Position numbers and translations under genes: made by a program. A DNA stretch of 64,000 nt from Halobellus inordinatus (GTDB lineage: Archaea > Halobacteriota > Halobacteria > Halobacteriales > Haloferacaceae): NCBI RefSeq assembly GCF_024464655.1, contig NZ_JANHAV010000012.1, forward strand, positions 1 through 64,000. The letters run 5' to 3'. The notes beneath the pieces are model-generated. The model did not search any database, was not told the DNA's origin, and was given only the letters and a program-made list of their open reading frames with translations. Each line of letters starts with the position of its first letter. Position 1 is the first letter of the stretch. Below are positions 21,616-26,114 of this stretch, one piece after another.

Positions 21616-22920
21616 TCACCCGCGGCGGGAACTCGTCAGGGCCAGGAGAGCGGAAGCTACGAGGAGAACAGCCAGCAGTCCAGGGACGGCGCCGAAGCCG
21701 TCGCCGAAAGCGTCCGACCCGCCGGTCGTGGCTCCAGTTCGGTCATCTCCGTCAGCACCGAGGACGTCGCTCCCGCCATCGGCTGCCTCGATTGCCGGCG
21801 TGGTCTCGGTAGTGACGCGTGGGGCTGTCGTCGGGGTCCTAGAGCGAGGATCCGAGGTACCGGAGGGAGTCATCTGGGATTGCTCGACGACGACCAGTCC
21901 GGCGGCTGTCTCTTTGGTGCCCAGCGCGTCGCCGACGCTGAGTTCGTAGCTCCCGGACTGCTCCAACGAGACGGTCATCGTGACGTGCTCCGTCTCTCCC
22001 GGATCGAGCGTGACAGTCGGCCCGTCGGCGGTCCGTGATCCGTTGACCAAGAGTTCGAGCGACGTACTGCCCGTCGCGCGGCCGCGGTTCTCGATCGTGG
22101 AGGTCACATCGACGCTCGCGTTCGGCGCCACTGAGCCATTCGACACACTGGCGTTGGTGAACGTGATATCCGCTCGCGACGAATCGGAGGAACTGCCACC
22201 GCCGCCACCGCCACTGCTACTGCCACCGCTGCTATCGTCGTTATCGTCGTTATCGTCGTCACCGTCCGAGGAGTCAGGAGTCGGCGTGGTGGTCGCTGTC
22301 GTGGTCGAATTCGGTGTGGGGGCCGCTGTCGTGGTCGAATTCGGTGTAGAGGTGGCCGTCTCCGTCGGCGTTGGTGTTGCAGTCTGAGTCGGCGTCCCCG
22401 TCGAATCCTCGACGATCTGCACAGCTGACGGCGACCGGTACGTGGCCGGTGAGAAGGTGCCTCCGTCCCCGTCCGCGAATTTCGTATCGGCCGCGACGAA
22501 GGCGACCTCGCCCTCGGTGTCGGCGTTCTCGGTGAATTCGAACGTGATGGTGGCGAGGACCGGATCGTCGGTCGCCGCCGACCGGTACTGATTGAACGCG
22601 ACCCAGCCTTGCTCGTCGTTCACGGTCGAGACGGGATCCTCGAAGTCGGACGTGCCCGCAACGTCCTGGACCTGGAGCACCGCAGGGTCGTAGGTGAGGT
22701 TCGTCTGGTAGCCTCGAACGTCGGAGGCGGAGGCCCACACAGTGAGCGTGACCGTCTCGCCGGGCTCACCCGTGATCGAGTCGGCGGGCGCATCGCCCGC
22801 TTCCTGACCGAGCGTCACCGACGAGTCGGGAGCCGATGCGGCGGGGGTGACGCCCGCCGCGACGATCAGGAGCCCAGCGACGCACACGACGACAACCGAC
22901 ACAGAGAGCGAGTCACGCAT
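21616..22920 (-). CDS. Cohesin-domain surface protein with CARDB domain and C-terminal membrane anchor
   Basis: 434 aa. A Sec signal peptide (VVVVCVAGLLIVAAG) precedes a cohesin-like beta-sandwich at about 38-172 (VTLGQEAGDAPADSITG, then NLTYDPAVLQVQDV and LATITFEFTENAD). A Thr/Pro-rich linker (172-210) and an Asp/Ser/Gly run lead to a CARDB domain at about 250-345. A final helix (VPGLLAVLLVASALLALTSS) ends in RRG, resembling PGF-CTERM anchors without the exact motif. The linker is probably O-glycosylated. Six nt upstream on the same strand lies a phosphoesterase ending in a dockerin, the natural partner of a cohesin. Confidence 0.82.
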   Translation of the reverse strand: MRDSLSVSVVVVCVAGLLIVAAGVTPAASAPDSSVTLGQEAGDAPADSITGEPGETVTLTVWASASDVRGYQTNLTYDPAVLQVQDVAGTSDFEDPVSTVNDEQGWVAFNQYRSAATDDPVLATITFEFTENADTEGEVAFVAADTKFADGDGGTFSPATYRSPSAVQIVEDSTGTPTQTATPTPTETATSTPNSTTTAAPTPNSTTTATTTPTPDSSDGDDDNDDNDDSSGGSSSGGGGGGSSSDSSRADITFTNASVSNGSVAPNASVDVTSTIENRGRATGSTSLELLVNGSRTADGPTVTLDPGETEHVTMTVSLEQSGSYELSVGDALGTKETAAGLVVVEQSQMTPSGTSDPRSRTPTTAPRVTTETTPAIEAADGGSDVLGADGDDRTGATTGGSDAFGDGFGAVPGLLAVLLVASALLALTSSRRG

Positions 22921-22926
22921 CCGCGA

Positions 22927-24783
22927 TCAGCCCCCTCCGGCGCTGTCGGCAACGGTAACGATGTCCCCAATGTCCACGTCACCGTCGTCGTCGACGTCGG
23001 CCGCGTCTCGGTCGATAGTGACGTCGTCGCCGTTGACGTACTGTTGCATCCGATCGACGTCGTCGCCGTCGACGTCCCCGTCGCCGTCGGCGTCACCTGC
23101 GAGCGATCCGTCGGAGCCGTCGGCGGGCGGCCCGTCAGCGTCGTCTACGTACCGGACGGTCAGTGTCGGCGGCGTCTCGCCCTCCGCCGTCTCGAAGTCC
23201 CAGCCGTCGTCGCCGAGCGGGAGGAACGCCCAGCCGTAATTGGCGGCCCCGTCGGCCCAGCGCTCGACGCTGTCGGTGACGTCGATCCGTGTCGAGCCGG
23301 ACGCGACGCTACCAGTTTTCGCATCGGGCGTCGTCGCGGCCTCGCTTCCGTCCGCCTGTATGCCGCCATCCATCGAAGCCCACGTGTCGTCTGCACGCCA
23401 CTCCGAGAGCATCCGATGGACCGCTGCGCCGTCACCCTCGTCGATCGTCTCGACAGTCAGCGTTGCTGATTGGACAGTCGCCTGAGACGGAATCTGTCCG
23501 TCAGCGTCGCCGACGATGTCGTCGAATCGAAGGAGCGCCTGCGCTCGATTCTCCGAGTTCTGCGGGTCGTTGGTGTCGACAGTGATCGTTGACGCAGTCC
23601 GATCGCTGCTCTCAGGGTCGGCTTCACGGAGGTTCGTATCGACCGTGCCGTCGTAGCCGTCGACGCCTTGCTGGAACGACGTGCGCGTGTCCTCGCTGGC
23701 AGACGGATCGAACCGAGCGTCGAAATCGAGGTCGAACGCGAACTCGCTGTCGCCGCCGGTCTCGTACTCGCCGAGGCTCGGCGAATAGGTGCGGAACTGA
23801 ATTCGGTCGGGTGTTTCATCGCCGCCTCCGGGATGAAACTGCACGAGCCGGAGCCACCCGGTGCCGCCGTCGCTTCGATCCTGGTAGTCCGCGACGACTT
23901 CGTAGACTGATTCGCCGGCCGCGTTCTCGGAGACCTGGTGGTACTCCCCGTCGTCTTCGTGCCAGTGGCCGTTCAGTACGAGGAATATCTGGGGATTCGG
24001 CTCGATCAGATCCTGCCACACCACCTCACCCGGGTTCCCTTCGCCGCCGTCGTCCTGGGAGTTGGTCGCGCGGCTACCGTCGTCGCGGAGGTACGAGTGC
24101 GTCGTGAGGATCGTCGGGCGGTCGGGGTAGTCGTCGAGGACAGACTGTGCCCACCCCAGCGGCGTGGCGTCGTCGTCGACAGTACCTGACGGTTCCCACT
24201 CCAGGGCGAGGTGAAGGAAGTCGTAGTCGCCGGCGGAAAACAGTTGATAGGAGTTGAGGCCCTCCGCTCGCGGCCCCGACCCGCCGTACCACGAATAGTC
24301 GTCGAACCGTGCCGGGCCGAAGTACGCGGCGTAGTTCTCGACCGAGGAGGATTTGTCGTTCGTCTCGGCCCAGTCGTGGTTGCCGGGCAGCGTCGAGTAC
24401 GGGACGACGCCATCGAGTGTCGACATCGCCCCGTCGATGCGGTCCCACTCGTCCTCCTCGGAGCCGTTTTCCACCAGATCGCCCTCGTGTGTGACAAATC
24501 GGATGGACTCGCTGTCGACGTTGTCGGCGATCCAGTCCGTCTGATCGGTCGCATACGAGATCAGCCGCTCTTTCTCGGCGTACTTCTGGGTGTCGGGGAT
24601 CGCGACGACGGTCCAGTAGTCGTCTGTCTGTCCCGCGGCTGGCGTCGGCTGGAGGGCCGCGAGTGCGCCGCCCCCGAGAGCGCCGAGAAGCGTCCGTCGC
24701 GAGATGCTGAACCGATCGGACGCGTTCGAGACGACACCCGGGCGAACGTCTGGACCGTCTACGGGGGGATCAAAATGGGACAT
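22927..24783 (-). CDS. Tat-exported metallophosphoesterase with DNRLRE and dockerin domains
   Basis: 618 aa. A twin-arginine signal (SRRTLLGALGGGALAAL, about residues 29-45) implies folded export. The calcineurin-like phosphoesterase (about 55-310) shows the metal motifs IPDTQKY, HEGDLVENG, PGNHDW, TTHSY and LNGHWHED. A DNRLRE beta domain (about 370-550) follows. The last ~60 residues are a dockerin with two calcium-loop repeats (DADGDGDVDGDDVDRM and DVDDDGDVDIGDI). The enzyme probably hydrolyses an external phosphomono- or diester and docks to the cohesin protein of the next gene. The domain order is clear; the substrate is not. Confidence 0.9.
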   Translation of the reverse strand: MSHFDPPVDGPDVRPGVVSNASDRFSISRRTLLGALGGGALAALQPTPAAGQTDDYWTVVAIPDTQKYAEKERLISYATDQTDWIADNVDSESIRFVTHEGDLVENGSEEDEWDRIDGAMSTLDGVVPYSTLPGNHDWAETNDKSSSVENYAAYFGPARFDDYSWYGGSGPRAEGLNSYQLFSAGDYDFLHLALEWEPSGTVDDDATPLGWAQSVLDDYPDRPTILTTHSYLRDDGSRATNSQDDGGEGNPGEVVWQDLIEPNPQIFLVLNGHWHEDDGEYHQVSENAAGESVYEVVADYQDRSDGGTGWLRLVQFHPGGGDETPDRIQFRTYSPSLGEYETGGDSEFAFDLDFDARFDPSASEDTRTSFQQGVDGYDGTVDTNLREADPESSDRTASTITVDTNDPQNSENRAQALLRFDDIVGDADGQIPSQATVQSATLTVETIDEGDGAAVHRMLSEWRADDTWASMDGGIQADGSEAATTPDAKTGSVASGSTRIDVTDSVERWADGAANYGWAFLPLGDDGWDFETAEGETPPTLTVRYVDDADGPPADGSDGSLAGDADGDGDVDGDDVDRMQQYVNGDDVTIDRDAADVDDDGDVDIGDIVTVADSAGGG

Positions 24784-24935: not shown

Positions 24936-26114
24936 TTAGTCGGTTGCCTCGACCGTCCGGGCGGATTCGAGCGATCGGACAGTCTCGACGATAGCCCGGT
25001 CCAGCCCGTGTTCGGTCCAGTCCCGTTTCCGTGGGATCTGTGCCCGGTACGTCACCACGTCGTCGAACAGTTCACGGAAGATGTCGCGCTCGCTGCGGAC
25101 GACCTCGTCGAGCGTTTCTACCATCGTGCCGCCCTCGACGAGCGAATCGTACGCGTGGAAGTACTCTCGGAGCCGGCCGTCCCACTCGTAGTTGCAGATG
25201 GCCGACGTCGCGGCCATCGCCGCCTCGGTCGAAATCCGCGCGGCGGAGACCGTCTCGGCGTTCGGCGCCGCCTCCAGAAACAGCACGTTGTCCACACTCG
25301 CTCGCTCGACGTCGTTCGCAGCGGAGTACAGCGTCGTGACGTCGACGAAGTCCCGGTCGTTATCGGCGAGATACGCGTTGTTCAGATACCCGATAGCAGT
25401 ATGCGGGAGCGAATGGCCACGGCTGACACGCTTGTCGATGAACGCGTGGACGTCGTGGCGGAGCCGGTCCTGGAACGTGTCGTACTCGGGCTCGATCTCG
25501 GTGAACGAGTCGAGATTGTAGGGCTGGAGATTCACGCCCAGAGGGTACCCGCGGGCTGAACCATCCGCGCCGACCCAGAGGCGGTCGTCCGAGAGGAAGT
25601 CCGCCCCGTTGCGGAGCAACGCCAAGAGCGTGTTCGTCTTGCCAGCGCCGCGCCAGGCCGGGAACAGCGTGGTCTGTCCGTCCAGTGTGACGCCGGACGC
25701 GTGAATCAGCGCCTGTCCCTGTTCGATGCGTCGCCGGCGAATCTCGAACTCCATCGGATAGATCGAGTAGAACGGCTCGAACCCGGGCGTCACGCGGATT
25801 TGCTCCCAGCCCGGTTCGACCGCCATATAGTCACCGCGGTTGTAGACGAGGAACTCCTCGCCGGTCCACCCGTAGTGATCCGTCGGATCGCCGAGAACGG
25901 TCTCGGAGTCGACCTCCACGGGTGCCTCTTCGATGACGAGGTCGGGGTCACGGGACGGCGAATCGGTCAGGAACTGGTCGTACATCTGGCGGTACTGGGT
26001 CGATGTACGTCCACCGTCGCCGACGACGGCTACCAGCAGGTCGCCGAAAAAGTCGTAATAGCGACGTGTTCTGTGTGGTCGGGTCGCGCGTGAGTTTCTG
26101 TTTGAGTTGGTCAT
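24936..26114 (-). CDS. HPr kinase/PEPCK-like P-loop protein
   Basis: 392 aa and soluble. The middle has a degenerate Walker A, AWRGAGKTNTLLAL (about residue 155), preceded by IHASGVTLDGQTTLFP and followed by FLSDDRLWV, the acidic motif of the HprK/PEPCK nucleotide-binding fold. No phosphotransferase-system HPr is near, so classical HPr phosphorylation is unlikely. Related proteins sit in surface-polysaccharide and peptide-modification clusters, acting on unknown substrates. It is divergent from the membrane protein at 26354. The substrate is unknown. Confidence 0.7.
   Translation of the reverse strand: MTNSNRNSRATRPHRTRRYYDFFGDLLVAVVGDGGRTSTQYRQMYDQFLTDSPSRDPDLVIEEAPVEVDSETVLGDPTDHYGWTGEEFLVYNRGDYMAVEPGWEQIRVTPGFEPFYSIYPMEFEIRRRRIEQGQALIHASGVTLDGQTTLFPAWRGAGKTNTLLALLRNGADFLSDDRLWVGADGSARGYPLGVNLQPYNLDSFTEIEPEYDTFQDRLRHDVHAFIDKRVSRGHSLPHTAIGYLNNAYLADNDRDFVDVTTLYSAANDVERASVDNVLFLEAAPNAETVSAARISTEAAMAATSAICNYEWDGRLREYFHAYDSLVEGGTMVETLDEVVRSERDIFRELFDDVVTYRAQIPRKRDWTEHGLDRAIVETVRSLESARTVEATD

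Follow-up and report, generated by a model that had tools for sequence, protein, structure and literature searches.

A cohesin–dockerin gene pair of a haloarchaeon as a probable surface tether for an exported phosphoesterase

In the haloarchaeon Halobellus inordinatus, a phosphoesterase ending in a dockerin and the cohesin protein encoded by the adjoining gene very probably form a private, one-to-one tether that holds this single exported enzyme at the cell surface, and not a cellulosome. This reading draws on the order of the genes, their domains and predicted folds, their conservation, and the way in which dockerin and cohesin go together. Two facts make a private tether probable: the pair is kept together in relatives, and copies of the enzyme without the dockerin plug come without the socket gene. 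Docking of the enzyme at the surface through cohesin and dockerin, put forward in the preliminary description of this DNA, is the best-supported reading in view of the fold, the perfect adjacency in the enzyme family and the class matching across loci.

Organization of the locus

The window is the whole stretch of DNA that was analysed, 64,000 nucleotides long. Both open reading frames lie at the coordinates first given for them: the phosphoesterase-dockerin gene, 22927-24783(-), is upstream of the cohesin gene, 21616-22920(-), and the 6 nt between them keep the frame. The DNRLRE domain, the CARDB domain and the adjoining kinase gene were all three absent from the preliminary description.

24936-26114, minus strand: P-loop kinase of 392 aa, HprK-related; lies upstream of the pair and is conserved beside it (TIGR04355, E 6e-8, below cut-off)
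22927-24783, minus strand: phosphoesterase with C-terminal dockerin, candidate for Tat export, 618 aa (open reading frame, domain matches)
24628-24783, minus strand: putative Tat signal of the phosphoesterase, SRRTLLG at residues 28-34 (SRR 28-30), by its sequence motif
23701-24615, minus strand: metallophosphoesterase domain (Pfam PF00149; motifs DTQ, GD, GNHD, H, GHWH)
23155-23640, minus strand: DNRLRE / CBM96-like domain, residues 382-543 (NF033679, E 5e-14), optional in relatives
22942-23109, minus strand: dockerin, residues 559-614 (HMM E 9e-16; fold match 6kg9)
23059-23094, minus strand: dockerin calcium loop 1, DADGDGDVDGDD, residues 564-575; D/G positions invariant in 22 tails
22963-22998, minus strand: dockerin calcium loop 2, DVDDDGDVDIGD, residues 596-607; conserved in 22 tails
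22921-22926, minus strand: gap between the genes, 6 nt, two codons, in frame; most relatives have a 4-nt overlap instead
21616-22920, minus strand: cohesin anchor protein, 434 aa (open reading frame; Pfam Cohesin above cut-off)
22831-22920, minus strand: putative Sec-type signal peptide of the cohesin protein, residues 1-30, a hydrophobic stretch ending ASA
22447-22797, minus strand: cohesin domain, residues 42-158 (HMM E 9e-41; fold match to PDB cohesins)
22171-22428, minus strand: linker of the cohesin protein, residues 165-250, Thr/Pro/Ser-rich then Asp/Gly/Ser-rich, by composition
21934-22167, minus strand: CARDB domain of the cohesin protein, residues 252-329 (Pfam PF07705, E 5.5e-7)
21619-21699, minus strand: putative C-terminal hydrophobic anchor and SSRRG tail, degenerate PGF-CTERM-like (DGFGAVPGLL), read from the sequence

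The cohesin anchor protein

Pfam Cohesin (PF00963) matches residues 47-153 of the window protein (E 1.7e-12; 48.1 bits against a cut-off of 24.1), and a genome-wide profile search identified it as the sole Pfam cohesin of the genome. Structure prediction bore out the cohesin fold claimed at the outset: when the window cohesin domain was compared with PDB cohesins, the model superposed on a solved cohesin over 126 residues (Z 14.9, rmsd 2.2), and all 50 Foldseek matches listed are cohesin entries, the Archaeoglobus one included.

The protein had been called membrane-anchored, and the C-terminal hydrophobic stretch with SSRRG indeed points to such an anchor. The cohesin proteins of most relatives end in a PGFG or like motif, a hydrophobic stretch and arginines, tails that by these motifs resemble archaeosortase A substrates. 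Archaeosortase A is encoded in the genome. A profile scan with TIGR04126 (PGF-CTERM signal) gave no match in the window cohesin protein, and the score of relative L066 (24.0) is just short of the cut-off of 24.5. As the window tail is degenerate and lacks this match, a plain transmembrane anchor and a divergent signal are both possible.

The phosphoesterase and its dockerin

The enzyme had been described as a Tat-exported phosphoesterase with a C-terminal dockerin, in agreement with its SRR motif, which predicts Tat export, its Metallophos domain and its two complete calcium loops. The Metallophos match (PF00149, residues 82-276) is above cut-off with an E-value of 6e-7, and the calcineurin-like metal-binding motifs DTQ, GD, GNHD, H and GHWH are all present. 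An RR candidate is found near the N terminus in 24/24 phosphoesterase relatives, a few of which show no clear Tat motif.

Searched with the whole window protein, Pfam Dockerin_1 scores 15.7 against a cut-off of 22.9, which orthologous tails in two other genomes (G290 and G228) exceed; the cut-off concerns the score of a model and no feature of the structure. The best PDB sequence matches of the window tail are dockerins, and a profile built from 22 orthologous tails retrieves dockerins in the PDB. The model superposes on dockerin 6kg9 over 62 residues (Z 10.9, rmsd 1.4), with a helix after each calcium loop that yields the two loop-plus-helix repeats of a type I dockerin. Despite the sub-cut-off Pfam score, we thus assign the tail as a dockerin from its sequence and profile matches in the PDB, its complete and conserved calcium loops and its fold.

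Model of the joined dockerin and cohesin

The gap between the genes keeps the frame, so reading the window DNA past the stop yields a single chain containing both modules. AlphaFold2 was run on the joined dockerin-cohesin chain with an alignment of 41 sequences, leading to a mean pLDDT of 84.4 and a pTM of 0.74. The pLDDT is about 94 for the dockerin and about 96 for the cohesin, mostly above 90 within the domains, and falls below 50 in the linker, which is disordered. A rough count, an estimate only and made for the true pair only, gives an expected pTM of ~0.59 with the dockerin unplaced and of ~0.75 with the dockerin placed. A complex prediction had been proposed as a check of the pairing, and in this model, as judged from the pTM and this estimate, the two domains are confidently placed relative to each other.

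Docking classes in the genome and in other haloarchaea

A search of the genome for other dockerins, also proposed as a check, revealed three more above cut-off (two on C19, one on C21); their class is a different one, and so is that of the cohesins beside them. They stand beside, or are fused to, a diverged domain missed by Pfam Cohesin (L099, 8418-11761; L100, 7491-11239). Since a PDB search with the sequence profile of this domain retrieved no cohesin, its assignment as a cohesin relies on profile-profile comparison (96.5% probability against the cohesin profile) and on the predicted fold: the model has a pLDDT of 90.8, its best Foldseek match is the Archaeoglobus cohesin (E 9.6e-9, Z 14.1) and its top Z is 15.3, with 6kgc. 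The window pair comprises the only A-class cohesin and the only A-class dockerin found in the genome; together with the C19 and C21 loci, the docking loci number at least three and fall into two classes.

The cohesin protein could instead be a general surface receptor for several dockerin proteins, or for those of neighbouring cells, a reading favoured by the three other above-cut-off dockerins of the genome and by scaffoldin-like proteins in other haloarchaea. We consider it unlikely, since those three dockerins belong to the other class and are found beside, or within, proteins that have their own diverged cohesins. Classes also match across haloarchaeal loci with adjacent partners: 49 are A-A and 12 are B-B, the B cohesin being the diverged type. 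These counts are given without a p-value because related loci are not independent, and they include L153 as B, scored by its sequence KLEDVNGDG...DVQTLW, where the automatic label had been A.

The initial statement that this is not a cellulase system is true for the window locus, where there is just one cohesin and glycoside hydrolases are absent. No cellulosome scaffoldin with several cohesins was found in the genome, where Pfam finds one cohesin and the diverged-class proteins found have at most two cohesin-like domains each. Nor did we find dockerin-bearing plant cell-wall hydrolases: the partner at the window locus is a phosphoesterase, and the two other dockerin proteins of the genome that were scanned are a PQQ-propeller protein and a PKD/CARDB protein.

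Conservation of the pair in related genomes

The comparison drew on 60 regions, each surrounding a cohesin, a dockerin or a close relative of the window cohesin. A dockerin-tailed phosphoesterase was found at 24 loci, and in 24/24 the next gene downstream, on that strand, encodes a cohesin. Among the 22 pairs with called ends, 19 overlap by exactly 4 nt, two have spacings of 0 and 2 nt, and the window pair has 6 nt. Many of these 24 loci had been found through the cohesin, and the search was therefore repeated with the enzyme domain only, over 293 genomes of the order. This gave 18 enzyme loci, 12 with and 6 without a dockerin. An adjacent cohesin was present at 12/12 dockerin-bearing loci, a count weighted heavily to one genus (g37), and at 0/6 dockerin-less loci in the fetched flanks; the association of dockerin with adjacent cohesin is significant by Fisher's exact test (p 5e-5; 0.002 when each genus and class contributes a single locus). 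Two genomes (G202 and G245) each hold one enzyme locus with and one without a dockerin.

Such adjacency is not automatic: when loci were selected by a dockerin, whatever its kind, 6/20 had an adjacent cohesin gene. The 14/20 haloarchaeal loci without one mean that a dockerin alone is no proof of docking, and they lend weight to the idea that the dockerin tail binds substrate or is stabilised by calcium and has no protein partner, the adjoining cohesin having another role. Dockerins have likewise been read as substrate-binding in haloarchaeal mannanases and glycosaminoglycan lyases (PMC10963439, PMC13260240). For the phosphoesterase family, the perfect association with an adjacent cohesin, the class matching and the placement in the joined-chain model make this idea quite improbable. 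The conserved pairing suggests that the dockerin of this family more likely serves to plug the enzyme into a specific socket on the surface than to bind substrate.

The DNRLRE domain is missing in 9/24 relatives, as judged from length and BLAST coverage and not from a per-protein domain scan, and dockerin and cohesin are always kept. A mirror-tree test gave a weak signal of cohesin-dockerin coevolution beyond shared inheritance (partial r 0.19, about 3% of permutations). The largely congruent distances of cohesin, dockerin and catalytic domain would fit a vestigial pair that persists without function through operon inheritance, but this is most improbable, given that 22 tails agree throughout at the calcium-loop and core positions and that the pair is kept across genera while DNRLRE comes and goes and the kinase changes orientation.

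The neighbouring kinase

The match of the kinase to TIGR04355 (HprK-related kinase B) is confined to the surroundings of the P-loop and, with 32.2 bits, does not reach the cut-off of 200; no relative of its profile was found in the PDB. A kinase match lies within a few kb of 20/24 docking loci, one being an 83-residue fragment (L070), and it is sometimes on the strand opposite to the docking pair. Searching with the kinase only, we found 15 genomes with a kinase, which accompanies a docking locus in 11, a dockerin-less enzyme in one and lies elsewhere in three.

Proposed mode of action and wider significance

In the tether that we favour, the phosphoesterase would be exported folded through Tat and the cohesin protein would leave via Sec and remain membrane-bound through the hydrophobic segment at its C terminus. 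The flexible linker would raise the cohesin off the membrane. Outside the cell, and thus in high salt, the calcium-loaded dockerin would dock into the cohesin and so retain the enzyme on the surface. Phosphate or other products would then be freed beside the cell and not be lost to the brine.

We also lean, by a small measure, towards a broader view, in which at least two mutually exclusive cohesin-dockerin classes serve haloarchaea as a general orthogonal code for surface tethering. This code would comprise private enzyme tethers, a diverged class invisible to Pfam and, in one genus, true scaffoldins that have many cohesins and are loaded with subtilases. Within it, the window pair, with the HprK-like kinase beside it, would form one module dedicated to a surface phosphoesterase. 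Enzyme display in haloarchaea becomes directly testable in culturable species, and pairs of the window type are candidate salt-tolerant orthogonal binding pairs, usable as tools.

Relation to known systems

Single-cohesin surface anchors such as OlpA and OlpC are known from cellulosomal bacteria, where a surface cohesin holds a dockerin-bearing protein. The folds (3ul4, 4dh2) are the same as in the window pair. In contrast to these, the window locus has no cellulase, scaffoldin or SLH domain, its partner is a dedicated neighbour gene and its anchor is archaeal.

Non-cellulosomal archaeal pairs are already known, from Archaeoglobus and from ANME archaea, and the window system is a variant of them. 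Specific binding has been reported for the pair of Archaeoglobus fulgidus (Bayer 1999; Voronov-Goldman 2011, as cited in PMC9012536 and PMC9705933), which has also been used for surface display (PMC9705933). Its cohesin (2xdh) matches the fold of the window cohesin (Foldseek E 6.6e-7, Z 13.9). Unlike in Archaeoglobus, the window dockerin is carried by a phosphoesterase with predicted Tat export, and its partner is a putatively membrane-anchored protein with CARDB; the host is an extreme halophile, the pair is conserved over several genera and a kinase gene adjoins it. ANME archaea have surface proteins with cohesin and dockerin domains, and CARDB and PGF-CTERM are listed for the same genomes (PMC9012536, PMC5244752); these comprise scaffoldin-like chains and many copies, whereas the window locus has a single 1:1 pair with a phosphoesterase. 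Anchoring of enzymes by cohesins has been suggested in a methanogen (PMC11452385). Our literature search found no account of haloarchaeal cohesin-dockerin pairs, some of which may be listed in the review of non-cellulosomal modules by Peer and colleagues.

Other docking loci

A second paralogous pair is present in G321, G328 and G334 (L064, L065 and L069), and no kinase turned up near it. In L064 and L065 the phosphoesterase has GHWY in place of GHWH, and the cohesin frame of L069 is shortened by stops.

Short cohesin proteins of about 210-260 aa (L078, L087-L090, L094) had no dockerin in the fetched flanks. The dockerin proteins without an adjacent cohesin include a group of about 575-685 aa with a C-terminal dockerin (L138, L142, L143, L145, L150, L157) and another of about 1500-1800 aa with an internal dockerin (L139, L140, L144, L146, L147, L149, L152, L156).

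At L072-L075, L086, L091-L093, L095, L101 and L109-L112, large proteins with cohesin and dockerin in one chain are followed by a single-cohesin anchored protein; the two large ones scanned (L086, L095) are S8 subtilases. Scaffoldin-like proteins with 8 and 14 cohesins occur in genus g54 (L096, L097 and L098, in G087 and G264). Clustered around them are proteins with dockerin and cohesin tails, of which those scanned are S8 subtilases, and the cluster possibly encodes a surface multi-protease complex.
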